A stretch of 64,000 bases of DNA from Desulfovibrionales bacterium (GTDB lineage Bacteria; Desulfobacterota; Desulfovibrionia; Desulfovibrionales; Desulfovibrionaceae). This document shows, piece by piece, positions 463 to 54,110 of the stretch. The stretch lies in NCBI GenBank assembly GCA_030156255.1, contig JASGMV010000002.1:1-64000 (forward strand), given 5' to 3'. Both the position numbers and the translations under genes were made by a program. A model generated the notes under the pieces. It was not told the origin of the DNA and made no database searches. It worked only from the letters and a program-made list of their open reading frames with translations. Position 1 is the stretch's first letter, and each line of letters begins with the position of its first letter.

Positions 463-536
463 AAAGCTGGGGAAAGGGGAAAATCCTTTTTCGTGCGGAA
501 AAGAGGGGGTTCCACTTTCCCCCCAATTTTTATTGG
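463..536 (-). repeat. G/C-rich hairpin repeat, copy 1
   Basis: Lies between the start of ridA and the end of the transglycosylase gene. Arms 469-481 and 510-522 pair over 13 bp with one mismatch, and an inner CCTTTTTC/GGAAAAGAGG helix continues toward the loop. Read on the minus strand, its ...CCCCTTTCCCCAGCTT end resembles the end of copy 2 at 2968-3062, so it is placed in the same family but inverted. It is the most diverged copy. It has no clear U-run of a simple terminator. Confidence 0.6.
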
Positions 537-594
537 CCTCGGGAGGTTCACGCGGGGCCAGAGCGCTCCGTCTTGCGGCGGTGCAATTGCCGTC

Positions 595-1818
595 TCAGCC
601 CTGAAAGTTCTTGTACGTCTCCATGGCGCGGGTCACTTTGTCCACATAGCGCCGTGTTTCGGCGTAGGGCAGATCCTTTTTCAATTTATTCAATATTTGC
701 TGCGGGGTGTAGCGGGCGGTTTTGGCCGCCAGTCCGCCGAGGTTCGTCCCGAAGGCCTTGGCCACGTTGCCCGCGCCCGTGTTGTAGCCGGCGATGGCGC
801 AGTACAGGCGGCTTTCGGGATTGCCCACGTTTTTCAGGTACCGGTAATAGAGCAGGTGGAGATAGGCCGCGCCCAGCTCCACGTTTCGGTCGGGTTCGAA
901 CAGGTAGTCGGTGTCCAGGATTTTCTTTTCGCCGTAAACGAAGAGGTAGGCGTCGAGGGCGCCGGAGGCGGGCACGAGCTGCATGAGCCCGTAGGCCGGG
1001 ATGGGCGAGACGGCGCGCGGGTTGAAGGACGACTCCACGAAGGTCACGGCCAGAACCAGATTCACGGGCATCTTGAAGCGGGCGCCGAAGTCTTTGGCGA
1101 AGGGGTACACCGCTTGGGCCGAAAGTTTTTCGTGGTCCTTCTTCATTGGGATCGTGATGCTGGCGATGGTTTTTTGCCCCTGGCTGGTGGAGCTTTGCCG
1201 GATGGTGACGTCTTCGCCCTGCTCGATTTGCCGCTCCAGGCGAACCGGGGTCAGGGTCTTCGTGTCCAACAGGTGTTGCAGGGACTTGGCCTGCCGCACC
1301 TCTTTGGACTCCGCTTTCGGGGCCGCAGGGGCGTAGGACGAGGCGATGATATCCTGGCGCACGGGGTCGAGCTTGTCCAACTGCGCGGACGGCAGGGTCA
1401 GGGCCTTGGCGCTGAATGCGGCCAGCCGGTTCCGTAATTCCTGGGGGGAGACGTCCGGCGGCGCCTCCACCTCGACTTTCACCGTACCGGTCTGATAGTT
1501 GGCGGCGATGCGCCCTCCCTGGCTTTCGTCGTAACCCACCCATTGCTTGGGCGCCGGAAGCAGCACTTCCTTGTCGCCCCAGGAGGAGGCCACCTGAGCC
1601 CCGGCCCGAGCGAAGGCCTGTTGCGTTCGGCGGTTCAGGTCGTCAAAGGCCTGTTTGGCTTGGGCGTCGAAGCTGGCGAAGGCCTCCTGCTCCATCCGGT
1701 CGAATTCCGCAAACGGGTCGCGGGCCAGGGCCAGAGAGGGGAGCAGTCCGCTCGCGGCGAGGGCTGCGGTCCCGCCCATCAGGCGAAGGACCTGTCGTCT
1801 ATTCAAATGTTCGTTCAT
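595..1818 (-). CDS. Tat-exported MltC-like lytic murein transglycosylase
   Basis: This 407-residue protein resembles membrane-bound lytic transglycosylase C: an N-terminal murein-transglycosylase region (about residues 35-190) is followed by an SLT catalytic domain (about 240-400). The SLT domain shows the catalytic Glu in FVESSFNPRAV, then AYGLMQLVP and the IAGYNTGAGNV motif. The N-terminus NRRQVLRLMGG followed by a hydrophobic stretch and ALA looks like a twin-arginine signal peptide, so a folded enzyme is probably exported to the periplasm to cleave peptidoglycan glycan strands. No lipobox Cys follows the signal, unlike E. coli MltC. It sits 10 bp downstream of the LPP20-like gene and is probably co-transcribed with it. 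A paralogue is cut by the right window edge. Confidence 0.9.
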   Translation of the reverse strand: MNEHLNRRQVLRLMGGTAALAASGLLPSLALARDPFAEFDRMEQEAFASFDAQAKQAFDDLNRRTQQAFARAGAQVASSWGDKEVLLPAPKQWVGYDESQGGRIAANYQTGTVKVEVEAPPDVSPQELRNRLAAFSAKALTLPSAQLDKLDPVRQDIIASSYAPAAPKAESKEVRQAKSLQHLLDTKTLTPVRLERQIEQGEDVTIRQSSTSQGQKTIASITIPMKKDHEKLSAQAVYPFAKDFGARFKMPVNLVLAVTFVESSFNPRAVSPIPAYGLMQLVPASGALDAYLFVYGEKKILDTDYLFEPDRNVELGAAYLHLLYYRYLKNVGNPESRLYCAIAGYNTGAGNVAKAFGTNLGGLAAKTARYTPQQILNKLKKDLPYAETRRYVDKVTRAMETYKNFQG

Positions 1819-1828
1819 ATATCCTCGC

Positions 1829-2728
1829 CTATCGATAGGAAATAGCGACCCGGGCTTGGCGCAGGTACTTTCCGCCCTGTCGGTTGGTTTCGTAGATTTT
1901 TGCGGCGTCCTCTTGGGAGACGAGCAGGACGTTGTCCTCGGCGACGTCTAGCACCGGGACCACCAGCGGGTTGTCTCCGGCCTTCTTGTCCTGCACGGCC
2001 GCCTGGACGGTCTCGGCGTAGCGAACCATGCCGTAGCGGCGCAGGGTGGCCGTCTCGACGCTTTCGAACGAATAGACCGCGACAAGCCCGCGATCCGTCT
2101 TGACGGCTACGACCGGCCGGACTTCTTTCTTGTAGGACCGGTCCATGAGGTTCAAGACCAGCCCCGTTACGGGCTTGGAGGCGTCGTAGCCGAGTTTTTC
2201 GCCCTTGACGGCGTCATCCTGTGAAGAGGGTGCGAAGGCTTTCCGGGGAATGCGCTCGTCCGCCACGGAGGACAGGTCCAGGGCGTCCACCAAGGCGCCC
2301 TGGCAACCGGGGCCGGGGGCGATGCAGACGGACATGGTCACCGTGGTCAGGGGCGATCCGTCGCTCAGGATGTCGGTTTTTTTATCCACCACGTTGGCGC
2401 CCTTGAGCAACCCGCTGACTTTGGCGCTGATCAAGTCTTTCTGGATGATAAAGTCTTGTACGAGGGTTCTGGAGTCGATCCGGACGCCCTTGATGGTTTC
2501 CAGCAGATTCCGCTGAGCGTCCACCGTGGCTGCGCGGATGGAGCCGATTCGGGCCTGGGCTTGGGTCAGGCCCGGTTTGGCCGTTCCGTAGCCGTAGCCC
2601 AAAACGACCCCGTTCACCCAGTCCACGTTGCCTTTTTCTCCGGTCGCCTCCTGGGCCTGGGCGGGAGCGAGGAAGCAGAACGCCACGGAGAACAGGAGGA
2701 GAGCGGCGGTCAATCGTCGAGCGAACAT
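1829..2728 (-). CDS. secreted LPP20-like protein
   Basis: This 299-residue protein starts with a signal peptide (MFARRLTAALLLFSVAFCFLAPAQAQ). Residues about 60-130 read AATVDAQRNLLETIKGVRID, resembling the LPP20 domain found in envelope lipoproteins of several bacteria. There is no Cys at the cleavage site, so it is probably soluble in the periplasm rather than a lipoprotein. The open frame extends about 100 codons upstream, but the ATG at 2728 has an AAGGAG site and is the only start giving a signal peptide. It is the first gene of a pair with the MltC-like transglycosylase, suggesting a cell-wall or envelope role. The function is not established; the LPP20 assignment is by eye. Confidence 0.75.
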   Translation of the reverse strand: MFARRLTAALLLFSVAFCFLAPAQAQEATGEKGNVDWVNGVVLGYGYGTAKPGLTQAQARIGSIRAATVDAQRNLLETIKGVRIDSRTLVQDFIIQKDLISAKVSGLLKGANVVDKKTDILSDGSPLTTVTMSVCIAPGPGCQGALVDALDLSSVADERIPRKAFAPSSQDDAVKGEKLGYDASKPVTGLVLNLMDRSYKKEVRPVVAVKTDRGLVAVYSFESVETATLRRYGMVRYAETVQAAVQDKKAGDNPLVVPVLDVAEDNVLLVSQEDAAKIYETNRQGGKYLRQARVAISYR

Positions 2729-2967
2729 GTGATACTCCTTCAGTAGGCGTCTTCGGTCTTCAAAGCGAGGACCGGCGTCGGATTCGAAATCAAACGCCGG
2801 GATGGTTCGCCGGAACTGCACATCTCCCGGCAACCATGCGGCAACTATCGCAATCGTTGATTTCGTACAATGCGATGCAGTCGAATGCAACCCGGTTAGA
2901 GCATGTGTTGGGATGGATCGCAGAAGGAAATAAAGAAAGTATCCGCTGTTTCGACTCGCGGCCCGTT
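2729..2967. other. upstream region of the LPP20-like gene
   Basis: Non-coding. It must hold the promoter of the minus-strand LPP20-like/transglycosylase pair, but I see no convincing -35/-10 or -24/-12 element. The remainder up to serA is the hairpin repeat at 2968-3062. Confidence 0.4.
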
Positions 2968-3062
2968 CCCCCCCTATAACAGTTTTCGGGAAAGGGGATG
3001 GGGGCCGAGGGAAGGGGAAAACCCCTTTCAAAAGGGGTTTCCCCCTTCCCCAGCTTCCCCCG
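2968..3062. repeat. G/C-rich hairpin repeat, copy 2
   Basis: Directly follows the serA stop codon (3068-3070). Arms 3009-3028 and 3031-3050 form a 20-bp stem with a single mismatch and almost no loop. A conserved left flank, GTTTTCGGGAAAGGGGATG at about 2981-3000, is shared with copy 3 at 61.6 kb. The stem is not followed by a T-run on either strand, so it is not a simple intrinsic terminator, although it could stabilise the 3' end of serA mRNA. Confidence 0.75.
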
Positions 3063-3067
3063 ATATC

Positions 3068-4252
3068 TTAAACGCACACGCGGCGGACGCCTTCCACGGC
3101 GCGGATGCGTTCGCAGGCTTCCTCGGAGGGTTTTTGGTGCAGGACGTAAACGGTCTGCACGGCGTCGGATATCCAGCGGGAGTTGTTTTCCCGGATGTTG
3201 ACGCCGAATTCGCCCAGGATGGTGCCGAACTTGCCGAACATGCCCGGCTTGTCCTCGTGAGTGATGAACAGCGTGTAGATGTCCTTGCCTTCTTCTTCAA
3301 CGGTTTGCCCGACGTTGATGGAGTTCACGAAATCGCCGCGGCGCAGGTAGCGCGTCACCACCTCGGCGATTTCCAGGCCCGTGCGGCGAGAGGCGTTGAG
3401 GGTGGAGGCGCCCAGGTGGGCGGACAGCACGACGTTGTCCAGCTCCAGAAGTTTGCTGCGGAACGGTTCGCCCTCGCGCTTGGGCTCATTCTCATAGGTG
3501 TCCAGGGCGGCGCCGGCGATGACGCCGGTGCGCAACGCTTCATACAGGGCGTCCTCGGATACGTTCTTTCCGCGCGAGGCGTTGATCAGATACGCCGTGG
3601 GTTTCATGAGCGCCAGTTCCTCCCGGCCGATGATCACGCCGTTGCCGCCGGTGTGCAGGGACACGAAGTCCGCGGCTTTGAGCACGTCCTCCTTGGCGTC
3701 CAGGTACTCCACCTTGGATTCGAGGTCGCGGTAAACGTCGTAGCCCACGACTTTCATACCCAGGCCTCGGGCCTTGCCGGCCAGTGACTGGCCGATGCGG
3801 CCGCAGCCGATGATTCCCAGCACCTTGCCGAACAGCTCGTTGCCCACGAACTGTTTCTTGCGCCAGATGCCGTTTTTCAGGGCGAAGTGGGCGAAGGGCA
3901 GTTTGCGGGCGACGGCGAACATCAGGCCGAGGGCGAGTTCGGCCGCGGCGTTGGTGTTGCCGTGGGGAGCGAACTTGACGATGACGCCCCACTTCTTGGC
4001 CGCCTCCAGGTCGATGTTGTCCGAGCCCACGCCTCCGCGGCCGATGATTTTGAGCTTGCCCGATCCTTTGGCCCCGGCCTCGAGGACGTCTCTGGTGACT
4101 TTGGTGGCGCTGCGCACCAGCAAAGCGTCGAAATCCGCAATTTCGCCAAGCAGATCCTCGTGGTCCCGCTTGACCGTATCGACTATGAAGCCGTGCTTTT
4201 TGAGATATTGAACGCCTTCATCCACCAATCCGTCGTTGGCCAGGATCTTCAT
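3068..4252 (-). CDS. serA: D-3-phosphoglycerate dehydrogenase
   Basis: This 394-residue NAD-dependent 2-hydroxyacid dehydrogenase should oxidise 3-phosphoglycerate to 3-phosphohydroxypyruvate, the first step of the phosphorylated serine pathway. The Rossmann motif GIIGCGRIGQSLAG lies near residue 140, the substrate/NAD motif NASRGK near 225, and the catalytic His is in SAHLGAST near 282. The C-terminal 70 residues (YTLFITHEDKPGMFGKFG) form an ACT domain, normally the site of serine feedback control, so it is the short ACT-bearing type of PGDH. The start has an AGGAG site 9 bp after the aminotransferase stop, so the two genes form an operon catalysing consecutive steps. Confidence 0.95.
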   Translation of the reverse strand: MKILANDGLVDEGVQYLKKHGFIVDTVKRDHEDLLGEIADFDALLVRSATKVTRDVLEAGAKGSGKLKIIGRGGVGSDNIDLEAAKKWGVIVKFAPHGNTNAAAELALGLMFAVARKLPFAHFALKNGIWRKKQFVGNELFGKVLGIIGCGRIGQSLAGKARGLGMKVVGYDVYRDLESKVEYLDAKEDVLKAADFVSLHTGGNGVIIGREELALMKPTAYLINASRGKNVSEDALYEALRTGVIAGAALDTYENEPKREGEPFRSKLLELDNVVLSAHLGASTLNASRRTGLEIAEVVTRYLRRGDFVNSINVGQTVEEEGKDIYTLFITHEDKPGMFGKFGTILGEFGVNIRENNSRWISDAVQTVYVLHQKPSEEACERIRAVEGVRRVCV

Positions 4253-11436: not shown

Positions 11437-11572
11437 TTTAGAGCATATTACGCTTGGAATGCTTGCTTCACGGCGAGCGTAGCTCGCCTACAAGCATTCC
11501 GCGGCAAGGATTTGCGGACAAATTCTTGCCGAGCAGCTAAACTTTTTCAAAGTTAATCTGCTCTAATCTTGA
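11437..11572 (+). repeat. multi-hairpin repeat, copy A (fullest)
   Basis: Three consecutive stem-loops. Stem 1: 11456-11465 with 11491-11500 (10 bp), enclosing a second GGCGAGC/GCTCGCC helix. Stem 2: 11503-11514 with 11519-11530 (12 positions, one mismatch, 4-nt loop). Stem 3: 11531-11545 with 11549-11563 (15 positions, two mismatches, TTC loop). The left end reads TTTTAGAGCATATTACGC. Related copies lie at 34.8 kb and 53.0 kb. No open frame and no transposase is associated. Confidence 0.8.
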
Positions 11573-34760: not shown

Positions 34761-34807
34761 GAGGCCGCTGCGGGCTCGGCGCTTTCCGATGTTTTATTTT
34801 TCGGCGA

Positions 34808-34916
34808 GGGCGGGTTAGCTTTTCAAAGTTAAACCACGCTGCAGGAATTTGCGAGCAAATTTTTGCAGCGACCTGCTTGTAACACAAGCAGGTCAGGCGT
34901 AAATGTTCTAGGTAGA
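34808..34916 (-). repeat. multi-hairpin repeat, copy B
   Basis: Inverted relative to copy A (11.5 kb). Stem 1: 34870-34879 with 34885-34894 (10 bp, perfect). Stem 2: 34838-34851 with 34856-34869 (14 positions, two G-T wobbles). A weaker third stem lies at 34814-34834. Read on the minus strand it starts TAGAACATTTACGCC, as copy A starts TAGAGCATATTACGC. Stem sequences differ from copy A while pairing is kept. It lies between a terminator and the hybrid kinase gene. Confidence 0.75.
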
Positions 34917-53021: not shown

Positions 53022-53092
53022 GTCAGAGCAGTTGAACTTTGAAAAAGTTCAACTGCTCGGCAAGGATTTCAAGCGTAATATGCTTTAGAGTT
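53022..53092 (-). repeat. multi-hairpin repeat, copy C (internally shortened)
   Basis: Same orientation as copy B. Stem 3 is perfect here: 53026-53040 with 53044-53058 (15 bp, GAA loop). Read on the minus strand it starts with AGCATATTACGCTTG, as in copy A, then jumps to the right arm of stem 2 (CCTTGCC), so stem 1 and the left arm of stem 2 are missing. It overlaps the stop codon of the PilZ gene (53085-53087), which it seems to supply. Confidence 0.75.
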
Positions 53093-54110
53093 GGGCGATA
53101 GCGTGAAAGAAGCTTCGGGTGCTGGAAGGTTTGTCCAGGGGAGCCCACTCGATGGGGGCCGTGGGCGAGGCGTTGCGCACGGCGATGCAGCTGAATTGAA
53201 CGCCCACGACGAACATTCCCGATTTCGCCTGGCGCAGATGTCGGATTTTACCGCCCAAAAAGAAGGAAACGAATCGTTTGTCGTCTTTGATGAACGGCCG
53301 CACCTCCACACAAACGCCGCTGTCCGGGCGCAGCTCGTCCTTGACGAGGGAGCGGTGGACTCCCACTCGCATTCCATGGGTTGAGACGTCGAAAAAGCGT
53401 TCCTGCGCGCGGTTGCCGAGTCCTTTCTCGACATTGATCTGGAACGATGGCTGAGAGAACCGGAATTTCCCATTGGCGCCGGCGTCCGGATCGCGCAGCC
53501 AGACTCGGGCCATGATGGTGCGCTGCGCGCGAATGCGTTTGCGTTTATACCGCCGCCTTTCCTGCACTTCCATTTTAACGGGCATTTTGACGCGGAGGAT
53601 GTCGTTGCCGTAGCGGTCCTGCTCGAAGGAAATGGCGTACGTCTTGAAGCTATTGGTGCGGATTGTGAAATGTAAAATCGGCCTGTAATAGCAATAAATA
53701 AATTTATTTTTAATGTCCCTTGTGATGGATATGTTCGTGTAAATCTTAATGAGGATTGAGTTTCTGCGGACACTTTGAAGTAGACCTGCTCCCAGTTGGT
53801 CCGTATCGCCTTTTTTTACGTTCATGATCTCTATAGGAACTTTTTCTTCACAGAGTACGCGGAGCACATGTTGGCGATGTCCGCTTTCGAAAAGTTTATG
53901 CAGCCAAAGGCGAATTTCGTATTGAACGCCAGGAATCGTTTTGTACAGCAGGACAAGGACCAGGATGCACGCCAAAGCAAAGAAGGCGATGAGGGCGTAA
54001 GCCAATCCGGGATAGAGCGCGAACCATCGCTCCAGATGTTGGTAGGCGAGTTGAGGCCACTGCTGTATATCCTGCAGGATGGCGGCTGTGAAAACTGGCG
54101 TCGTGTACAT
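53085..54110 (-). CDS. membrane-anchored PilZ domain protein
   Basis: This 341-residue protein has one membrane segment (about 34-58: GLAYALIAFFALACILVLVLLY), a region without known domain (60-175), and a PilZ domain (about 180-330). The PilZ c-di-GMP motifs are present: RRRYKRKRIRA (RxxxR type) and DVSTHGMRVG (D/NxSxxG). It should sense cyclic di-GMP at the inner membrane; the output is unknown. The start lacks a good ribosome site. Its 3' end runs into repeat copy C, which provides its stop codon. Confidence 0.82.
   Translation of the reverse strand: MYTTPVFTAAILQDIQQWPQLAYQHLERWFALYPGLAYALIAFFALACILVLVLLYKTIPGVQYEIRLWLHKLFESGHRQHVLRVLCEEKVPIEIMNVKKGDTDQLGAGLLQSVRRNSILIKIYTNISITRDIKNKFIYCYYRPILHFTIRTNSFKTYAISFEQDRYGNDILRVKMPVKMEVQERRRYKRKRIRAQRTIMARVWLRDPDAGANGKFRFSQPSFQINVEKGLGNRAQERFFDVSTHGMRVGVHRSLVKDELRPDSGVCVEVRPFIKDDKRFVSFFLGGKIRHLRQAKSGMFVVGVQFSCIAVRNASPTAPIEWAPLDKPSSTRSFFHAIAQL

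Follow-up and report, generated by a model that had tools for sequence, protein, structure and literature searches.

A multi-hairpin intergenic repeat of a Desulfovibrionaceae genome, very probably a non-autonomous MITE of the IS630 (Tc1/mariner) superfamily

The window analyzed here, a 64,000-nucleotide stretch of the genome of Desulfovibrionales bacterium, carries a repeat with several hairpins at 11.5, 34.8 and 53.0 kb, and the question arises as to what kind of element it is and why its stems differ between copies while remaining paired. The first-pass annotation had left three options: a non-autonomous mobile element, a REP/BIME-like element or a structured RNA. The first of these was borne out by the IS630-type ends, the empty TA sites and the presence in relatives of insertion sequences (IS) sharing these ends. 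We assign a probability of roughly 0.93 to the repeat being a non-autonomous MITE of the IS630 (Tc1/mariner) superfamily, an identity based on the shared IS630 ends, the TA target with its empty sites, the target preference, the deletion derivatives and the IS remnants of the host.

Copies in the window and in the host genome

All three copies are real and were recovered by a covariance model trained on 28 full-length copies. The span first given for copy A, 11437-11572, does contain it but is a few bases too wide. The features are as follows:

11439..11565, + strand: copy A, full-length copy of the probable MITE, 127 bp including both flanking TA (covariance model, E 1e-40)
11441-11563, + strand: predicted excised unit of copy A, GAGCA...TGCTC
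11439..11459, + strand: left terminal inverted repeat of copy A, TAGAGCATATTACGCTTGGAA
11457..11500, + strand: stem 1 of copy A, GGAATGCTTG/CAAGCATTCC, around an inner stem GGCGAGC/GCTCGCC
11503..11530, + strand: stem 2 of copy A, GGCAAGGATTTG/CAAATTCTTGCC
11531..11563, + strand: stem 3 of copy A, GAGCAGCTAAACTTT/AAAGTTAATCTGCTC
11545..11565, - strand: right terminal inverted repeat of copy A, TAGAGCAGATTAACTTTGAAA, doubling as the outer arm of stem 3
34806..34910, - strand: copy B, diverged 105-bp variant with a shortened stem 1, GACCTGCTTG/CAAGCAGGTC (E 1e-16 within the window)
53024..53087, - strand: copy C, 64 bp, a deletion derivative in which the left end is fused to stem 3 (E 4e-9 within the window)

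The family layout consists of the consensus TAGAGCATATTACGC, stems 1, 2 and 3, and TA, so that TA is present at both ends of the element; in copy C, everything but the left end and stem 3 has been lost. The predicted fold of copy A has an energy of -65 kcal/mol (z -6.5 relative to shuffles). Stem 1 does differ between copies A and B with its pairing kept, as had been pointed out, whereas the same claim for stem 2 is right only in part, since this stem has two A.C mismatches in copy B. The element has no gene of its own, in line with the earlier mention that neither a transposase nor an open frame is present: 127 bp are too short to encode a transposase, and no element-borne ORF was found. The left TA of copy C falls within the stop codon (53085-53087) of the ORF at 53085-54110 (- strand), the present stop of which may have been supplied by the insertion of this copy.

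In the 3.84-Mb assembly of the window's own genome (G000), the model identified 84 distinct places at E<1e-5, a few of these being half-copies truncated at the end of a contig, and the genome-wide count that had been proposed therefore takes the family far beyond three members. A blastn search with copy A gave 39 further copies, either near-full or cut by contig ends, and many copies of the family are 93-98% identical to copy A. Many contigs terminate inside copies, as expected from near-identical dispersed repeats. Based on a crude ORF picker, 68 of 82 copies are intergenic; those located between convergent genes (26) outnumber those between divergent genes (9), and among copies flanked by co-directional genes neither orientation is preferred (16 vs. 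15). One copy (L206:746-873) is contained in an open frame of 2694 bp (464-3157, - strand) and may be read as part of the protein. Deletion derivatives of 28-64 bp retain the ends of the element. Solo palindromes of 28 bp (TAGAGCATATTACGCTTGAAATGCTCTA), which look like REPs, occur at L245:1698, L248:2199 and L249:2041; they appear to be two element ends fused together and probably represent a minimal deletion derivative.

An 18-mer of the element matches Im510_bin30, Roe453_bin138, Nc350_bin8 and Im510_bin59, which are titled Desulfovibrio sp., as well as Gx481_bin32, titled Deltaproteobacteria bacterium; going by their isolate names, these bins appear to be of termite-gut origin. Where genes of the window and the bins could be aligned, their DNA is about 75% identical, and the elements of these bins are about 80-89% identical to the G000 consensus. 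The model gave matches in 7 of the 39 genomes searched, G000 included, all of which belong to the family of G000, and none in 16 genomes from other families of the order. In G016, G008, G012 and G019, distinct repeat families occur, in which the ends are similar and the hairpin sequences differ. In Roe453_bin138, whole or partial copies form head-to-tail tandem runs (L144:6703-7059 and L173:4417-4780). A plasmid or phage origin was rejected, as no blastn matches to the element were obtained among plasmids or phages.

Ends, target sites and IS630 partners

The ends of the element align as imperfect inverted repeats, TAGAGCAnnTTAnnYTTGAAA. With a looser end pattern, TAGAGCANNTTNNNYTTNAAA, allowing at most one mismatch, 58 occurrences were found in G000 as compared with 1 for the reversed-pattern control; candidates obtained with the end pattern at C3, C19 and C34 were dismissed as chance matches or short forms. 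A search for pairs of element ends in the loci analyzed yielded no autonomous element with those ends, and the IS partners emerged only when relatives were searched for DDE_3, the IS630 catalytic domain. IS630 elements with matching ends were then found in Roe453_bin138 (L253, 998 bp), G008 (L254/L269, 995 bp) and G015 (L270, 1000 bp), the ends of L253 and L254 being close to TAGAGCATTTTAACTTTGAAA. The right end of the family consensus agrees with an L253 end at 20 of 21 positions. The agreement of the left end is weaker (16-18 of 21): 17/21 with the IS630 termini found in L253 and in the G000 remnant, and 18/21 with one end of L270. The fact that 16-20 of 21 end positions are held in common with L253, L254, L270 and the G000 remnant argues for an IS630-derived MITE. 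The variant end TAAAGCAnnTTGCA is common to the IS and the MITE of G016. The transposase of the L253-type IS is split into two overlapping frames around an A-run, an arrangement in which programmed frameshifting is presumably involved, and its ORF2 scores above the cut-offs of NCBIfam IS630 and of Pfam DDE_3.

In the host itself, contig C73 stops inside an IS; the last 98 bp of this IS code for the C-terminal part of the same transposase and terminate in TAGAGCAATTCACGTTTGAAA; contig C21 carries a second, diverged IS end. The sole DDE_3 match in the host, L215 on contig C5, was rejected as a partner: it is a decayed ORF, the remnant of another IS630-like transposase. In the G000 assembly, this IS group is represented by a contig-end fragment and remnants, with no intact transposase, and present-day mobility there is therefore only putative, although the element shows those features of IS630-derived MITEs that were tested at the sequence level.

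The search for empty sites and target duplications that had been recommended yielded two clean filled/empty pairs at TA, both in a single relative (Im510_bin30) and none in the species of the window, where the copies have flanking TA. In both pairs, the element sits exactly at a TA and leaves TA on both sides. The filled site L141 reads GATTGGAATT-TA-[element]-TA-GAAAATATCT and the empty site L197 reads GATTGGAATT-TA-GAAAATATCT, with flanks 93% identical; the idea that this flank might be a CRISPR leader was dropped, since direct repeats are absent there. In the second pair, the L207 element occupies a TA common to two other repeats, and L124 is the uninterrupted, more diverged version (flanks 87%). 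Neighboring and tandem copies likewise have a single TA in common. Reconstruction of the target for the 65 copies whose ends are intact gave YTAR in 45 cases (background 10.7%) and CTAG in 11 (background 1.4%, p 1e-9), although the Y/R bias around the TA could partly belong to a longer terminal repeat and thus be contributed by the element and not by the choice of target. A preference for CTAG in an IS630-associated transposon is reported in the title of Tenzen and Ohtsubo (1991), a work cited in PMC2170065.

The repeats adjoining the L207 element were also considered. The palindromic, TA-ended repeat TAGTACGCTGTAA...TTACAGCGTACTA is present in the Im510 bin at L207:66-113 and on the reverse strand of L124. 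It is similar to the termini, TAGTGCAGTGTAACATTTAAA, of a different IS630 element, L258:166-1096 in the Gx481 bin, and the two probably make up a second MITE-IS630 pair, as judged from these ends. A third repeat (L207:237-385) starts with TAGAACATTTTGCTTTTGAAACGCTCCC and resembles the G016 family. These different TA-ended repeats adjoin in L207, with single TA dinucleotides in common, and thus form mosaics.

Taking the element to be an IS630-derived MITE, an IS630-family IS would supply the transposase in trans, which would bind the terminal inverted repeats of about 21 bp, excise the element beside the flanking TA and reinsert it at another TA, preferably YTAR, the TA being duplicated; the three internal hairpins contain no gene. 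We infer that the copies in G000 were moved by the transposase of this particular IS group. The chemistry may be of the cut-and-paste type, by analogy with what has been published for ISY100 and IS630. The bacterial element ISY100, which belongs to the IS630 family, inserts nearly exclusively at TA, which is duplicated, and its 24-bp terminal repeats are likely to be the minimum cis requirement (PMC2170065). The present element resembles ISY100 and IS630 (bacterial Tc1/mariner) in the duplication of a TA target; they are autonomous and encode a transposase, whereas the element does not.

Paired changes in the stems

The first-pass annotation had seen in the two-sided stem changes a hint of selection on structure, either of the DNA or of the RNA. 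Paired changes are indeed enriched: two-sided changes affect 12 pairs as compared with 5.3 in shuffles, the cells with two-sided changes number 31 vs. 9.2, none of 500 shuffles reached the observed values, and controls with a slid structure were lower too. The covariation that had been pointed out is thus statistically supported, but one-sided changes are commoner (143 vs. 26 two-sided, about 5:1), no sign of selection at the RNA level was detected, and template switching may account for at least two copies. Most paired changes of the family are located in stem 3, and the arms of stem 2 are nearly invariant in G000. The one-sided intermediate of the paired change in stem 1 of copy A is visible in L009 (A.C), which suggests that this change arose stepwise. 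In L036 and L039, 4 nt have been lost and the left arm of stem 1 now reads as the perfect complement of its right arm. Rewriting of an arm in a quasi-palindrome is the expected signature of template switching, an established mechanism, and template switching between the arms may explain part of the pairing. The best reading of the paired changes is that they reflect the upkeep of palindromes at the DNA level (by template-switch correction, perhaps together with selection for palindromes) and not a functional RNA.

That the hairpins of this same MITE were themselves selected, for instance as bidirectional transcription terminators by which insertions between convergent genes become harmless or as cruciforms aiding transposition, is a tentative alternative of some standing. 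The hairpins may be under some constraint, since variation is lower in paired than in unpaired columns (0.084 vs. 0.126 in G000; 0.099 vs. 0.235 in relatives), and the almost unchanging arms of stem 2 and the excess of convergent (26) over divergent (9) sites point the same way. However, one-sided changes are five times as frequent as paired ones, the rewritten arms of L036 and L039 are explicable by template switching without any selection, and a scarcity of divergent sites is also to be expected if insertions into promoters are harmful. A rather unlikely variant is that the hairpins are actively rewritten between copies, by template switching from arm to arm or by exchange of hairpin modules, while the architecture and the ends used by the transposase are kept across genera; the hairpins themselves would then have a function at the DNA level, for example in transposition assisted by cruciforms or in insulation of the insertion site.

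It is very improbable that the repeat is a structured RNA (an sRNA, a riboswitch-like element or a 3'-UTR element) the stems of which are kept by selection on a transcript. The strong predicted fold (z -6.5) and the paired changes exceeding the controls would suit such an RNA, but selection on RNA should favor G.U on the transcribed strand, and stem mismatches on the given strand were about equally G.U (34) and A.C (45) in G000, while in relatives A.C prevailed (178 vs. 73 G.U), mostly in stem 3. The lack of any excess of G.U over A.C is evidence against selection on a + strand RNA. Moreover, the orientation is random with respect to flanking co-directional genes, no part of the window matched Rfam at gathering scores, and the ends, TA sites and IS relatives suffice to explain the repeat; the structured-RNA option was therefore rejected.

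That the repeat is a REP/BIME-type element mobilized by a RAYT (Y1-type) transposase is hardly credible: the title of PMC3733652 names a GTAG/CGTC tag as the defining feature of REPs, and although the repeat is intergenic, palindromic, present in high copy number and sometimes arranged in clusters and tandem runs, its unit measures 127 bp, whereas a REP is a palindrome of 20-40 bp, one end of which bears GTAG or CGTC, its terminal inverted repeats have the consensus ends TAGAGC/GCTCTA with TA on both sides, two clean empty sites are at TA, and its ends agree with those of IS630 elements.

Relation to known repeats and significance

The element most closely resembles, and works like, RUP, the repeat unit of pneumococcus (Streptococcus pneumoniae), which is proposed to be mobilized by IS630-Spn1, its terminal repeats matching that IS630-family element and its insertion occurring at TA (PMC2229807). 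In both cases, the repeat is about 107-127 bp long, has no ORF and is present in about 80-110 mostly intergenic copies (PMC2229807 for RUP). Unlike RUP, the element belongs to a host of another phylum, differs in sequence, contains three hairpins internally, occurs in size variants as short as 28 bp and has relatives among the repeat families of sister genera, and its partner IS was assembled in G000 only as remnants. The Correia/NEMIS elements of Neisseria are also short MITEs with terminal repeats, TA ends and long stem-loops (PMC2229807, Table 1), but their sequence is different, and an IS partner was found for the present element, whereas none was known for Correia at the time of that review (PMC2229807). 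Among the bacterial repeat families covered by this 2007 review, RUP was the sole one for which an IS sharing its ends was known (PMC2229807), and a further clear MITE-IS630 pair is therefore useful. No description of the family in Desulfovibrio was found in the open-access literature, from which most subscription journals are absent.

Intergenic multi-hairpin palindromic repeats of about 100-130 bp are known in rhizobia (RIME) and Caulobacter (CIR). The element is like them in these respects.

The element very probably adds one more case to a well-known kind and does not represent a new RNA: what was an unexplained repeat now has a named element kind, a proposed partner enzyme, a target rule and empty sites. 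The paired changes call for caution, as such changes in the stems of genomic repeats need not imply a functional RNA. The MITE reading accounts for the mosaic multi-hairpin intergenic repeats of termite-gut Desulfovibrionaceae.
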